This document shows positions 43,709-51,135 of a DNA stretch of 51,135 bases, one piece after another. The stretch's first letter is position 1; each line of letters opens with the position of its first letter. The stretch lies in assembly GCA_030604905.1 (NCBI GenBank), contig JAUVVA010000015.1, positions 1-51,135 on the forward strand, given 5' to 3'. The DNA comes from Verrucomicrobiota bacterium. GTDB taxonomy: Bacteria; Verrucomicrobiota; Verrucomicrobiia; Opitutales; Opitutaceae. Below the pieces are notes generated by a model. That model saw nothing but the letters and a program-made list of their open reading frames with translations, did no database searches and was not told the DNA's origin. Made by a program: the position numbers and the translations under genes.

Positions 43709-45190
43709 ATGCAAGGAAGCCCTGTTTCTCCCCCGCTTTTCGAACCCGCCCGTGCGCTGCCCGAGGCGGGAGCCTACGATGTGGTCGTGTGCGGCGGCGG
43801 CACCTCGGGTTTTCCCGCCGCGGTGGCGGCGGCGCGCGAGGGCGCGAAGGTGGCGCTGATCGAGCGCTATGGGTTTCTCGGCGGCGTGCCGACGGCGTCG
43901 ATCATGCCCTGCTGGCACGGCCTGAGCCGGCACCACTCGGGCTTGTTGACGGAGTTTGCGCAGCGCGTGGCGGACTTTGACCAGGGGCCGAATCCCTTTG
44001 AGAACGATCACATCGAGCCGGAGACCGCGAAGATGGTGATGCTCGAGATGCTGATCGAAGCGGGGGTCGAGATTCACCTCCACAACTGGCTCGCGGGTGT
44101 GACGCGCGAAGGCTCGCGGGTGACCGGCGTGATCACCGAGAGCAAGTCGGGCCGGCGGGTGTTTCGCGCTCGCGCGGTGGTGGACACGACGGGCGACGGC
44201 GACGTGGCCGCGGCGGCGGGCGCCGATTACATGAAGGGGCGCGACGGGAAACTGCAGGGCATGACGCTGCGTTTCCGCATCGGGCACATCGACCTGGCGC
44301 GCTACTTCGCCTGGATGAGCGAGAATCGCGGCTTCTTTCGCGGCATCACCGACGAGCGCCTCGCCGCGCTGAAGAGCGCGGCGGCGGCGGAGAAGGCCTT
44401 CTACATCGGAGCGGATTTTTCGCCGCTCTATGCGGAGCACCCCGAGATCCCCAACCTGCCGGAGGGCAGCTATTTTAATGTCAGTTGCCTGCGCCCTGGC
44501 GAATTCTCCGTGAACGCCACGCGCATCTATGGAGTGGACGGCACGGTGGAGGAGGATCTCACCCGTGCGGAGATCGTGAGCCGCCGGCAGGCCTACGCCA
44601 TCTGGCGCTTCCTGCGCCGACGCATCCCGGGCTTTGAGAAGTCGATGATCGTGGACGTGCCGGCCCAGATCGGCGTGCGCGAGACGCGCTGCATCCTCGG
44701 CGACCACGTGCTCACGGAGGAGGATTGTCGAGCAAACCGCGAGTTCCCCGACTCGGTGATGACGACGCGGATCGCCTTCGATATCCACGATGTGGACCGC
44801 TATGTGATCGAGACCTTGAAGGGTGTAGTGGACGTGCCCTACGGCTGCTTTCTGCCGCGCGGCGTGGAGGGCATCACGGTCGCGGGGCGGACGCTGTCTT
44901 GCGATCACGTCGCCAACTCCACGATTCGCAAGATGGAGACGGCCTTTCAATCCGGCCAGGTGGCCGGCACGGCGGCGGCCTTGGCGGCGCTGGCTGGCGT
45001 GACGCCGCGGGAGCTGCCGGTGTCGCGATTGCAGGCCCACTTGGAGAAGGCCGGGCTCTATGTGAGCCAGGAGGCGCGCTACCGGCAATCGGAGGTGGTG
45101 CTCGGTCGGCGACGGGATGAGCCCACAGGCATCGTGGCGGGTAAAAACGTGACCGTGCACGAGCCGCGCGAGGCTGTTAGCGCAGCGTGA
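43709..45190 (+). CDS. FAD-dependent oxidoreductase
   Basis: A 493-residue flavoprotein of the FAD-dependent oxidoreductase group. The dinucleotide-binding fold is YDVVVCGGGTSGFPAAVAAA (GGGTSG at 29-34), followed by the ribose-binding Glu52 in ALIERYGFLGG. AVVDTTGDGDVAAAAGADY is the second FAD motif, and the C-terminal VAGRTLSCDHVANSTIRKM closes the FAD site. There is no signal peptide. The ATG at 43709 is preferred over the in-frame TTG at 43697. Substrates of such enzymes are often sugar acids or aromatic or hydroxylated compounds; none can be named here. It follows the second LacI gene by 91 bp on the same strand, so it may be part of that regulon. A structured repeat lies just downstream. 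Confidence 0.85.
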   Translation: MQGSPVSPPLFEPARALPEAGAYDVVVCGGGTSGFPAAVAAAREGAKVALIERYGFLGGVPTASIMPCWHGLSRHHSGLLTEFAQRVADFDQGPNPFENDHIEPETAKMVMLEMLIEAGVEIHLHNWLAGVTREGSRVTGVITESKSGRRVFRARAVVDTTGDGDVAAAAGADYMKGRDGKLQGMTLRFRIGHIDLARYFAWMSENRGFFRGITDERLAALKSAAAAEKAFYIGADFSPLYAEHPEIPNLPEGSYFNVSCLRPGEFSVNATRIYGVDGTVEEDLTRAEIVSRRQAYAIWRFLRRRIPGFEKSMIVDVPAQIGVRETRCILGDHVLTEEDCRANREFPDSVMTTRIAFDIHDVDRYVIETLKGVVDVPYGCFLPRGVEGITVAGRTLSCDHVANSTIRKMETAFQSGQVAGTAAALAALAGVTPRELPVSRLQAHLEKAGLYVSQEARYRQSEVVLGRRRDEPTGIVAGKNVTVHEPREAVSAA

Positions 45191-45219
45191 GCCTCGGGCT
45201 GCGGAGACAGTTGGAAGGA

Positions 45220-45430
45220 ACCACTAATAGAACGGTTCAAAGAGCGCTCCTCGATCCTTGCGGTTCCGCTTCGCGAAACGAGGGGTGTCGATGTTTCGGC
45301 AATGCCTCACTTAAGAAGCTAACGGCGCGCAGGTCCTTTCCCGCCGAGGCATTGCCGAGCCATCGACACCGGGTGGTCCTTCAGGACCGCTTAACCCAAA
45401 GAACGCTCATTGAGCCGTTCTATTAGTGGT
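45220..45430. repeat. 211-bp structured palindromic element (copy A)
   Basis: The ends are ACCACTAATAGAACGG and its inverse CCGTTCTATTAGTGGT; the outer arms of about 31 bp pair with few mismatches. Inside, a second stem pairs GGTGTCGATG...CGGCAATGCCTC with its inverse (about 25 positions, two mismatches). Lateral hairpins carry GGTCCT-TC-AGGACC and GCGG-AA-CCGC. The whole can fold as a branched cruciform. Related copies lie at 50759-51135 in the opposite orientation. Confidence 0.85.
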
Positions 45431-45455
45431 CAATTCCTCCGCCCCGTCATCACGC

Positions 45456-46115
45456 TTAGGCGAGCAGGCCGCGCAGGCGCTGCATCGCGAGCTCGGGGCT
45501 GACGAGCAGGGGCGGCTTGACGAGCGGGGCGATCATCGGCGCCAGGCGCGACATCGAGGCCTGCGCGAAGACGAGCACGTCGAACTCGGCGGCGCGGCGG
45601 CACACGACGTCGGTGACGAGGCGGTCGTGCTCGGCCGTCTTCCCCTGGAGGAGCAGATCAAAGCCGCCCTCGCAGAGAATCTCCGTGCAGTCCACCGAGC
45701 CGCCGGCGGCCGCGGCGCGCGCTTCGAGCAATCGGCGGGTCGGGCCGAGCGTGCTGGGCACGGTGGCGAAGACGCCGATGCGCCGCCCGACGCGCACCGC
45801 GCGGTCGGCCATCTCCTCGTCGATTTTCACGATGGGCACCGAGACCGCGTCGCGGGCGCTGTCCACCGTCTCGCCCACGCTGGAGCAGGCATTGAGAATC
45901 ACGTCGGCCCCGGCGTCGGCGCAGGCCTCGAACATGCGGCGCATGCGGCGGCGGAGACGCTCGTCCACGCCGTTGGCGCGGGCGTAGGCGAGCAGGGTGT
46001 CGTCCACGACGTTGACGACGGCCACTCCGGGGAGCTGGGCGCGAACGGTGTTCTGGAGCAGCTCCACGAGGGCGAAGCTGGTGTGCACGATGCCGAGGGT
46101 CTTGGTGGTGGACAT
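45456..46115 (-). CDS. Asp/Glu racemase-superfamily protein lacking second cysteine
   Basis: A 219-residue protein with the fold of aspartate/glutamate/hydantoin racemases and maleate isomerases. TLGIVHTSFALVELL starts the first half. Cys77 in ILNACSSVGE is the expected first-site catalytic cysteine, and IGVFATVPSTLGPTRRLLE is the family's central motif. At the second site, where a cysteine is normal, the sequence is VFAQASMSRLAP (Ala185, Ser186), so a two-base racemase mechanism is unlikely. Isomerase or lyase activity on a dicarboxylate or sugar acid is possible. It is divergent from the IclR regulator; the GTCCG-N5-CGGAC palindrome lies between the two, so it probably belongs to the same regulon as the TPP enzyme and the DUF1537 kinase. 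Confidence 0.78.
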   Translation of the reverse strand: MSTTKTLGIVHTSFALVELLQNTVRAQLPGVAVVNVVDDTLLAYARANGVDERLRRRMRRMFEACADAGADVILNACSSVGETVDSARDAVSVPIVKIDEEMADRAVRVGRRIGVFATVPSTLGPTRRLLEARAAAAGGSVDCTEILCEGGFDLLLQGKTAEHDRLVTDVVCRRAAEFDVLVFAQASMSRLAPMIAPLVKPPLLVSPELAMQRLRGLLA

Positions 46116-49312: not shown

Positions 49313-50706
49313 GCCGGGTGCGTCGAGCGGATCTGCTCGCGGGGTCGCCGGCTTCGCGCGTGCTCGCGCCGCGGCGTGCGGCGGCGAAGTTGGTCGTGCT
49401 CGACGACGATCCGACGGGCACGCAGACGGTGCATGGCGTGCCGGTGTTGACGAGTTGGGAGCCGGCGGCGCTGAGAGCCGAGCTGCTCTCGGCGGCGCCG
49501 AGCTTCTACCTGTTGACCAACTCGCGGGCCCTGCCGCCCGAGGAGGCGGCGGCGCTGGGCGAGGAGATCGGCCGGGCGCTCGCCGCCGCGGTGGAGGAGT
49601 GCGGCGTGGCGGTCCAGGTGCTGAGCCGCGGCGACTCGACGCTGCGCGGGCATTTTCCCGGCGAGACGGACGCGCTGCTCAAGGGACTGGGCTGGACCTG
49701 CGACGCGACGTTTGTGGTGCCGGCGTTTTTCGCGGGCGGGCGAATCACGATCGGCGACGTTCACTACGTGGCGGAGGGCGATGAGCTCACGCCGGTGGGC
49801 GAGACGGAGTTCGCGCGCGACGCGGCCTTTGGTTTCCGGAGCTCGCGGCTGCAGGACTGGGTGGAGGAGAAGACGCGCGGGCGGGTGCGCGCGTCGGAGG
49901 TGGTGTCGATCGGCCTGGAGCTGCTGCGCGCGGCGGACGGCGAGGAGCGCGTGGCGCGGCGACTCGAGGAGCTGGCGCGCGGGGCCACGGTGGTGGTGAA
50001 CGCGGAGGCGCACGGAGATCTGGCGGTGTTGACGCACGCGCTGGCGGAGCCGGCGCTACGGGGGCGGCGTTACCTCTTTCGCACGGCGGCGGATTTTGCG
50101 GCGGCCTACGCTGGGATCGAGCCGCGGGCGCCCTTGGCGGCGGCGGAGTTGGTGGAGGCCGGCTCCAGGATGGGCGGGCTTTTGGTCGCGGGTTCCTATG
50201 TAGGTAAAACGACGCGGCAGCTCGATGCGCTCTTCGCGGCCGTGCCGGGTCTGGCGCGGGTGGAGATCGCAGTGGAGCGTGTGCTCGAGGCGGGAGAGCG
50301 GGACGCGGAGCTTGCGCGGTGTGTGTCGGCGCTTGCGGAGGCGATCGGGCGAGGCGAGCACGCGGCTTTGTTTACCAGCCGGAGGCTGGTGACGGGCGGT
50401 GATGGACGCGGGAGCCTGGCGATTGGCGACGCGGTGTCGCGCGCGGTGGTGGAGATCGTGTCGTCGCTGCCGCTGCGTCCGCGCTGGTTGGTGGCGAAGG
50501 GGGGGATCACGTCGAGCGACGTGGCGACGAGGGCGCTCGGCATTCGTCGCGCGGAGGTGTTGGGGCAGGCGCTGCCGGGCGTGCCGGTGTGGCGGACGGG
50601 CGGGGAGAGTCGCTGGCCCGGCCTGGCCTATGTCGTGTTCCCTGGAAACGTGGGCGGCGAGGACGCGTTGGCTCGGTTGGTTTCGGGATTGGCGGCGGTG
50701 AGGTGA
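49309..50706 (+). CDS. Four-carbon acid-sugar kinase family protein (DUF1537)
   Basis: A 465-residue ATP-dependent kinase of the OtnK/DtnK family. The family phosphorylates tetronates (erythronate, threonate) and 3-oxo-tetronates. N-terminal motifs: VVLDDDPTGTQTVHGVPVL (DDDPTGTQ at 32-39), YLLTNSRALP and SRGDSTLRGHFPGE (106-119). C-terminal nucleotide-binding motifs: KGGITSSDVA from 397 and FPGNVGGEDAL near 445. The start is GTG 49309, overlapping the stop of the TPP-enzyme gene in a GTGA arrangement, so translation is coupled. Usual partners (PdxA2-like dehydrogenase, OtnC aldolase, OtnI isomerase) are absent; the TPP enzyme takes the place of the aldolase. That suggests a variant pathway. 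Substrate unknown. Confidence 0.88.
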   Translation: MSRVRRADLLAGSPASRVLAPRRAAAKLVVLDDDPTGTQTVHGVPVLTSWEPAALRAELLSAAPSFYLLTNSRALPPEEAAALGEEIGRALAAAVEECGVAVQVLSRGDSTLRGHFPGETDALLKGLGWTCDATFVVPAFFAGGRITIGDVHYVAEGDELTPVGETEFARDAAFGFRSSRLQDWVEEKTRGRVRASEVVSIGLELLRAADGEERVARRLEELARGATVVVNAEAHGDLAVLTHALAEPALRGRRYLFRTAADFAAAYAGIEPRAPLAAAELVEAGSRMGGLLVAGSYVGKTTRQLDALFAAVPGLARVEIAVERVLEAGERDAELARCVSALAEAIGRGEHAALFTSRRLVTGGDGRGSLAIGDAVSRAVVEIVSSLPLRPRWLVAKGGITSSDVATRALGIRRAEVLGQALPGVPVWRTGGESRWPGLAYVVFPGNVGGEDALARLVSGLAAVR

Positions 50707-50758
50707 GCGAAGCGCTGATGGCGTAGCGGCACTCTTGGCCGATCCGTTTTGGACCGAT

Positions 50759-50996
50759 AATAGAACGGCTCAAGGAGCGTTCTTTTGGGGCAAGCGGTCC
50801 TGACGGACCAGCCGGTGTCGATGGCTCGCCAATGGCTCGGTGGGAGAGGGCGTGCGCGCTGCTTGCCTTTGGACTGAGGCATTGCCGAAAGATCGACCTC
50901 CCTTGTTTCGCGGAGCGGAACCGCCGAGATCGAGGGGCGCTCGTGGGCTGCTAGAGAGTCGCTCCATGAGTGGTCCGACCGGCTTGGGGAACCGCT
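50759..50996. repeat. Structured repeat element (copy B, degenerate)
   Basis: First of two tandem units with a 238-bp period. It starts AATAGAACGGCTCAAGGAGC, and the order of sub-blocks (GGTCCT hairpin, GGTGTCGATGGCTCG, GGCATTGCCGA, GCGGAACCGC) follows copy A read on the opposite strand. The distal outer arm has diverged. It lies 52 bp behind the DUF1537 kinase gene and runs to the next unit. Confidence 0.8.
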
Positions 50997-51135
50997 AATA
51001 GAACGGCTCAATGAGCGTTCTTTTGGGGCAAGCGGTCCTGACGGACCAGCCGGTGTCGATGGCTCGCCAATGGCTCGGTGGGAGAGGGCGTGCGCGCTGC
51101 TTGCTTTTGAACTGAGGCACTGCGGAAACATCGAC
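50997..51135. repeat. Structured repeat element (copy C, cut by window end)
   Basis: Second tandem unit, very similar to copy B over the 139 bp visible (few differences, such as AATGAGCG for AAGGAGCG). It keeps the CCGCTAATAGAACGG start that copy A shows at its end. The remainder lies outside the window. Confidence 0.8.

Follow-up and report, generated by a model that had tools for sequence, protein, structure and literature searches.

A tail-to-tail dimer of a REP-like, three-hairpin extragenic unit in an Opitutaceae genome

The window, i.e., the whole stretch of 51,135 nucleotides that was analysed, is one whole contig (C229) of a 4.19-Mb draft host genome (G000, 80.9% complete). It carries a palindrome that had been described as a branched 211-bp element. 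This palindrome is a convergent (tail-to-tail) dimer, and the true repeating unit is each of its halves of about 97 nt. The unit has a 5′ tag with the consensus AACCRCTAAT followed by three local hairpins, H1, H2, and H3. It is REP-like but not a REP, a variant of the REP/BIME kind. We favor, with a probability of roughly 0.57, the reading that the feature is a tail-to-tail dimer of such a REP-like extragenic unit, whose hairpins act as DNA or in both orientations and are read by a protein.

Anatomy of the palindrome and its repeating unit

The limits of the palindrome are 45217-45433, the span first given being 45220-45430. Its outer arms (45213-45249 and 45401-45437) are 37 nt each and 84% complementary, and its inner arms (45284-45308 and 45346-45370) are 25 nt each and 92% complementary. 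The DNA fold predicted for 45217-45433 shows side hairpins besides an outer and an inner stem, with a minimum free energy of -66.6 kcal/mol against -32.34 ± 3.45 in 200 dinucleotide shuffles (z = -9.93), none of which reaches this value. The branched palindrome with outer stem, inner stem, and lateral hairpins named in the original prediction is therefore real; its repeating part, however, is each half and not the whole 211 bp.

BLAST with the palindrome as query returned 21 stretches in the host genome. In congeners many matches cover one half only, and those loci show single copies of about 97 nt. Model R1, with three hairpins, comes from alignment A1, a MAFFT alignment of 31 halves that was not fitted to structure; three of the 33 copies of the first pass were dropped as untrimmable, and the window palindrome contributed its left half in addition. 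Searched over 73 sources, R1 gave 118 matches at E ≤ 0.1, the weakest of them doubtful. The two weakest (both in L183) were left out and 116 used, 107 of which were long enough for the counts of H1 and closing-stem pairs, tag motifs, T-runs, and cross-arm pairs. Among the 116 units, 48 form 24 convergent pairs with 30 to 47 nt between partners, and 68 are other copies. The arm comparisons include 22 of the 24 dimers, the remaining two being cut by contig ends.

In the window R1 (97 positions) hits the two halves as separate convergent units, both of which are themselves in the R1 alignment: the left one at 45217-45311 on the plus strand (80.6 bits) and the right one at 45343-45433 on the minus strand (76.9 bits), with a gap of 31 nt (45312-45342) as the dimer center. 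The tag of the left unit is AACCACTAAT (45219-45228, plus strand) and that of the right unit is GACCACTAAT (45422-45431, minus strand). By pairing count, H1 of the left unit (45229-45250) has seven of nine pairs, a bulged base, and an AAA loop, and H1 of the right unit (45400-45421) has nine of nine pairs, a bulged G, and an AAT loop. Sequence and alignment A2 (described below) place H2 of the left unit at 45263-45279, where it corresponds to one of the lateral hairpins first described. H2 of the right unit (45375-45388) is written in other letters (GGTCC...GGACC) and is paired in the DNA fold. H3, located in the same way as the left H2, lies at 45298-45306 in the left unit (GGC AAT GCC) and at 45348-45356 in the right one.

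A closing stem, P1, formed by the 5′ AACCGCT with AGCGGTT between H1 and H2, was tried as a further component of the unit and rejected: over 107 units it scored a mean of 5.38 of 7 pairs, which exceeds letter-shuffled linkers (4.82) but does not improve on linkers swapped between units (5.45).

Related copies had also been noticed at the window end, and they are there. R1 found a unit at 50750-50841 (plus strand, 72.6 bits), its convergent partner at 50873-50977 (minus strand, 57.3 bits; H1 with four of nine pairs in the fixed register and a loop enlarged to TCTAGCAGCCCAC), and a unit of the next dimer at 50988-51079 (plus strand, 76.9 bits). The convergent partner of the latter, cut by the contig end and missed by R1, lies at approximately 51111-51135 on the minus strand, as placed by direct repeat D1 and the overlap with contig C40. 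The array has a period of 237-238 bp; the window end and the end of C40 share an exact 123-nt overlap, and the C40 end carries an array of the same period. On the minus strand, a 167-aa open frame (50628-51131) runs through the array; it is probably spurious and a possible source of false small-protein calls.

Distribution and gene context

By BLAST or R1 the unit is present in the host and in five of 14 congeners, so that the locus in the window is not its sole occurrence, and the search of host and relatives proposed with the original prediction came out positive. We found at least 27 units in G005, 25 in G003, 23 in G008, 18 in the host, 12 in G013, and 8 in G002, all lower bounds because congener BLAST scored at most 8, and the family R1 search at most 20, candidates per genome. 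The nine other genomes of the genus gave no unit by BLAST, seven of them being also checked by R1; five two-mismatch pattern hits in four of these genomes are within the control level. The family R1 search drew 200 family genomes, 173 of them without a match; three weak R1 units were detected in G178 and G055.

The pattern AACCRCTAATN{8,10}CAATG reached further, matching in 28 of 252 family genomes. It gave 85 matches, 52 of which lie outside the genus, while the reversed pattern gave 6. Most of the loci read outside the genus show by eye the tag, H1 with the CAATG loop, and then further hairpins, of which only H1 was scored. Forty-three distinct H1 arm pairs from the pattern loci had a mean of 6.7 pairs versus 2.6 when shuffled and 3.1 with the arm of another genome. 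Eight or nine pairs were counted in 26 of the 43 and only two to six in 17, the latter including all six from G018, whose stem needs two bulged bases that the score disallows, and those of G124 and G164, which are probable chance matches. Relatives of the unit with the same layout and other stems are thus present in further Opitutaceae genera: as single copies in G018 (a complete genome), G279, and their kin, and as convergent dimers in G019, G118, G203, G229, G247, G260, and G266. Locus L343 represents a short form of the layout outside the genus. In a scan of a genome collection, 42 of 45 matched stretches belonged to MAGs labeled Opitutaceae or Verrucomicrobia bacterium. The matches outside Verrucomicrobia (Hymenobacter, Chloroflexota, and Leptolyngbyaceae) did not exceed 15.6 bits and were taken as chance. 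Among the matches listed from open-licence PMC papers, judged by title and the opening of the abstract, we found no literature on this repeat.

It is possible to follow some units between species. Between G003, G005, and G008 there are ten sites where both flanks match and two or three of the genomes carry a unit, one of these sites being a dimer (L138/L162). Fourteen comparisons of orthologous or related units gave 82 to 96% identity; by eye, it is chiefly the linkers and the loop of H2 that change. In host contig C148 (L032, 936-1771) two single units lie 442 bp apart in a duplicated segment, which indicates that units can be copied by local duplication. Elsewhere in the host, contig C212 (L035, 1861-2238) contains a CCGTGTAATCTGTGGTTAAAG-type repeat enclosed by two unit ends in inverted order, which are separated by about 300 nt. 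Another hairpin repeat, GGGCCCGCCGATTACCCCTAAACGGCGGGCCC, follows the units at L039 and L044 of G003 (the same places as L149 and L153).

In the genus, single-unit blocks are absent from divergent gaps. Gene calls came from a crude script based on codon scores, and orthologous units entered the count separately; 46 of 59 such blocks had called genes on both sides, and 29 of these were tandem, 17 convergent, and none divergent. Control gaps of at least 80 nt without a unit, taken from the window and the 42 loci of the genome-collection scan, were tandem in 44, convergent in 17, and divergent in 42 cases (n = 103; for divergent placement, 0/46 versus 42/103, Fisher p = 7e-9). For 32 of the 46 single-unit blocks, the 3′ end of a called gene is no more than 60 nt away. 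Divergent placement was seen in 3 of 13 multi-unit blocks in the genus and in 4 of 28 blocks outside it, where the labels single and dimer come from a loose regular expression. These divergent placements outside the main count, together with the ability of dimer inner arms to pair with each other (see below), slightly reduce our confidence in the favored reading.

Local hairpins, nested fold, and the level of constraint

Are REP-like repeats kept as DNA or as RNA? The set of units makes this question testable. In alignment A1, 92.8% of stem cells pair, and the covariation score is 0.281 versus 0.153 ± 0.010 in shuffled and at most 0.130 in slid alignments. Double changes affect 7 pairs there versus 5.4 in shuffles (17 of 500 shuffles reach 7), and the 13 further pair types are not above the shuffles (15.4). 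Alignment A2 consists of 113 distinct units and was fitted to the structure model. It has 94.2% of cells paired, double changes in all 20 stem pairs, 338 double versus 24 one-sided cells, and a covariation score of 0.414 versus 0.128 shuffled and at most 0.100 slid, although these shuffle comparisons are not probabilities, since A2 was fitted to the structure and the units are related. Compensatory changes, which the original prediction proposed to look for in aligned copies, are therefore abundant. The unpaired base in the 5′ arm of H1 is G in 77, A in 24, T in 5, and C in one of the 113 units (absent in six), and the H1 loop is AAT, AAA, or AAG in 104 of them.

The dimers allow the local hairpins to be compared with the nested fold. 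When H1 is scored within each arm of 22 dimers, 357 of 396 cells pair, versus 269 of 396 when H1 letters are matched across the arms. In 21 of the 22 both arms preserve an H1 of their own, and the cross-arm H1 match is only 11 to 14 of 18. The window dimer (45217-45433), whose arms are of one subtype, scores 16 of 18 both locally and across the arms. H1 letters also differ between the two arms in the dimers of G003, G005, and G008 that are borne by miniature elements (MITEs), as described in the next section. Tags can pair across the arms in all 22 dimers (195 of 220 in total, 6 to 10 of 10 in each), as can the inner 25 nt (446 of 550 in total, 17 to 23 of 25 in each); such pairing is expected from inverted copies of a conserved unit sequence. 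The centroid fold of L159 combines the two, with H1 and H2 local in both arms and tags and inner arms paired across.

The unit is structurally constrained, and since single units occur without a partner and the arms of dimers keep their own H1, the local hairpins are its general feature. A nested fold of the dimers in addition to them is possible. It had been argued earlier that the nested order is conserved across copies and reflects selection on the fold. A process that keeps a fold is indeed visible. Conservation of the nested order over the whole 211 bp is borne out only in part, as many copies are single halves without a partner and H1 letters match poorly across the arms of 21 dimers.

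The first alternative to a DNA-level constraint is a structured RNA, the unit being a 3′-UTR element that stabilizes or processes mRNA ends. It would agree with the position of single units near gene 3′ ends, with their absence between divergent genes in the genus, and with double changes that preserve the hairpins. Typical RNAs, however, carry more G.U pairs than are seen here. In A2, G.T makes up 28 of 1993 standard pairs (1.4%), and among 2116 cells A.C mismatches (53) are commoner than G.T (28). As RNA pairing should favor G.U over A.C, a preference not expected of a hairpin that works as DNA or on both strands, this suggests constraint on DNA or on both strands. In addition, both orientations occur: compared with the upstream gene, 28 of the 59 single units point the same way and 24 the opposite way, with 7 unknown. 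The window has no Rfam match at gathering score; four loci gave two matches far below threshold, one of them, cold-seep-1 (24.4 versus 125.8 bits), over a unit. Given how seldom G.T pairs occur, RNA function, one of the roles initially proposed for the palindrome, has a lower probability than a constraint at the DNA level or on both strands alike, and we regard it as improbable while leaving it a real share of the probability.

Double changes would need no selection at all if the arms copied each other by template switching. The excess of double over one-sided cells is what such mutational templating predicts, and some H2 loops do occur as reverse complements of each other (TTC 16 and GAA 8; TGC 4 and GCA 3). 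On the other hand, the two other common H2 loops, GTT (17) and CAA (16), are never matched by their reverse complements (AAC 0 and TTG 0), the tag, the position of the H1 bulge, and the AAN loop are conserved too, and the absence from divergent gaps is left unexplained. We hold this explanation to be somewhat less probable than a structured RNA.

The reading we favor is that of hairpins constrained as DNA or in both orientations. They would act as folded DNA, either as single-stranded hairpins or as cruciform arms; alternatively, within the same reading, they may be needed in both orientations at transcript ends.

ISL3-like ends, REPs, and a candidate reader

In G003, G005, and G008, dimers are found inside an element of about 306 bp with ends GGTTCYTCGCTGTTTTSAGTGGG. 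Among the 24 dimer blocks of the genus, an ISL3-like end of this type is present on both sides in 12, on one side in 6, and on neither in 6, the two blocks of the window being among the last. Seven of the 12 two-ended blocks have identical 8-bp duplications, two have duplications with one mismatch, and three (L133, the second copy of L154, and L166) have no clear one. An interrupted copy, L124, shows AATTAGAA at both outer ends. The insertion that interrupts it (L124:1978-3956, G005:C20) lies within the terminal arm of a dimer borne by a MITE; its own ends, CCTAAAAACGGCGAT, are inverted, and ATTAG flanks it on both sides, an apparent 5-bp duplication.

The assignment of these ends to ISL3 is based on the ends around PF01610 (ISL3 transposase) loci and on an ISL3-like stretch in congener G001 (70% over 95 aa) that lies beside such an end. 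Under the pattern used, four of 25 PF01610 loci of the family (L313-L315 and L317) have the ends in inverted order on both sides, three have one end, and 18 have none. ISL3 transposase matches were obtained in 58 of 252 family genomes; within the genus we detected none except one fragment in G007. MITEs with similar ISL3-like ends, other insides, and no unit are present at L260 (G001:C93), which has AATACATA on both sides, and at L238 (G007:C4).

Are the units then simply the inside of ISL3 MITEs, and the single units remnants after the loss of the ends? The blocks with ends on one or both sides speak for this, as do copies outside the genus in G203, G260, and G266 that lie near such ends, with one near-duplication at L346. 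Against it, such an end is missing within 160 nt of 54 of the 61 non-dimer blocks, a search of the host genome (81% complete) for the end gave nothing even with three mismatches allowed, and neither the six copies of G018, a complete genome, nor the five of G279 have such an end. Congener G001 carries an ISL3-like MITE that lacks the unit and gave no R1 match. An origin as MITE core therefore appears unlikely, marginally more so than mutational templating. ISL3-like ends carry dimers in some species and do not define the unit. It is probable that the ISL3 MITE came to carry dimers later and was not where the unit arose. Of the 24 convergent doublets, those with clear duplications bear ISL3-like ends, and the carriage of REP-like doublets by a DDE-type MITE represents a route of spread other than RAYT.

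Mobility by a trans-acting transposase, also part of the original prediction, gains support from the MITE-borne dimers of three congeners with their 8-bp duplications, but not for the window copy, which has no ISL3-like terminal inverted repeat within 160 nt. Target duplications were likewise found for MITE-borne dimers and not for the window copy. For the latter no orthologous or empty site was found, a 1.95-kb query yielding nothing beyond a unit of G013 and 75 bp of G002.

An intrinsic transcription terminator, which the position of units after stop codons might recall, is very improbable, as 45100-45560 contains no terminator-like site on either strand (0.4 in shuffles) and among 107 units only two have a run of at least five T after H1, three after H3, and two after H1 as read from the opposite strand.

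Short, palindromic, and intergenic, the unit resembles by description the palindromic MITEs of the ERIC, YPAL, and NEMIS type. Dimers of G003, G005, and G008, lying between ISL3-like ends with 8-bp duplications, resemble ISL3-family MITEs, in contrast to the window dimer and most non-dimer blocks. With REP, BIME, and REPIN sequences the unit shares an extragenic position mostly between convergent or co-directional genes, an imperfect palindrome, a short conserved motif 5′ of a hairpin, an internal bulge, and frequent inverted doublets. According to PMC3733652, REPs prefer convergent and unidirectional gaps, most of them fall into GTAG and CGTC superfamilies, and GTAG repeats are abundant in Opitutus terrae.

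There are also differences. The motif at H1 is CTAAT (within AACCRCTAAT), not GTAG or CGTC, and windows at the H1 foot contained GTAG, CTAC, CGTC, or GACG in none of 107 units. At the H3 feet CGTC was present in 4 and GACG in 23 of 107 units, so a minority of units may have a CGTC-like motif at H3. The unit has three hairpins in about 97 nt, whereas a REP, as characterized in the relevant part of PMC8266576, is a single imperfect palindrome of 20-50 nt; the earlier statement that the family is unlike the usual short REPs agrees with this. Finally, the unit has few copies, and no RAYT neighbor was found.

PMC8266576 also describes TnpA-REP as reading REPs in the form of folded single strands by means of a tetranucleotide 5′ of the hairpin, with a bulge in the stem also used in the reading of E. 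coli REPs. Because the unit shares a 5′ motif and a bulged hairpin with REPs, in other letters, a putative reader of the HUH type can be proposed: by analogy, a protein probably reads the tag and the bulged H1 as TnpA-REP/IS200-type HUH enzymes read REPs. Several genera share these small extragenic elements, whose hairpins persist although their letters are replaced, with G.T intermediates being few. They may represent a further class of REP-like DNA, CTAAT-tagged and three-hairpin, occurring in several Opitutaceae genera, read as folded DNA by a (perhaps HUH) protein, and located at gene ends in some genera and as ISL3-MITE cargo in others; we propose it tentatively, with the odds rather against it in this full form.

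Examined up to 1.5 kb on each side, 32 of the 39 Y1 (RAYT) matches showed no unit, a weak absence given that the genomes are drafts. Genus members that bear units have 16 Y1 matches, and only 11 of these are among the 32. A tblastn search with 30 Y1 frames, some of which may be misread, against 169 loci gave one doubtful match. When the 32 frames, two of which (L095 and L100) are fragments, were clustered, no cluster was present in every unit-positive and in no negative genome, and two small clusters occurred only in positives. G002 (79% complete) has units and no Y1 match. In the single-contig congener G011, three tandem Y1 transposase matches (L099, L110, and L121) lie at C1:723729-725730 with a spacing of 836 bp.
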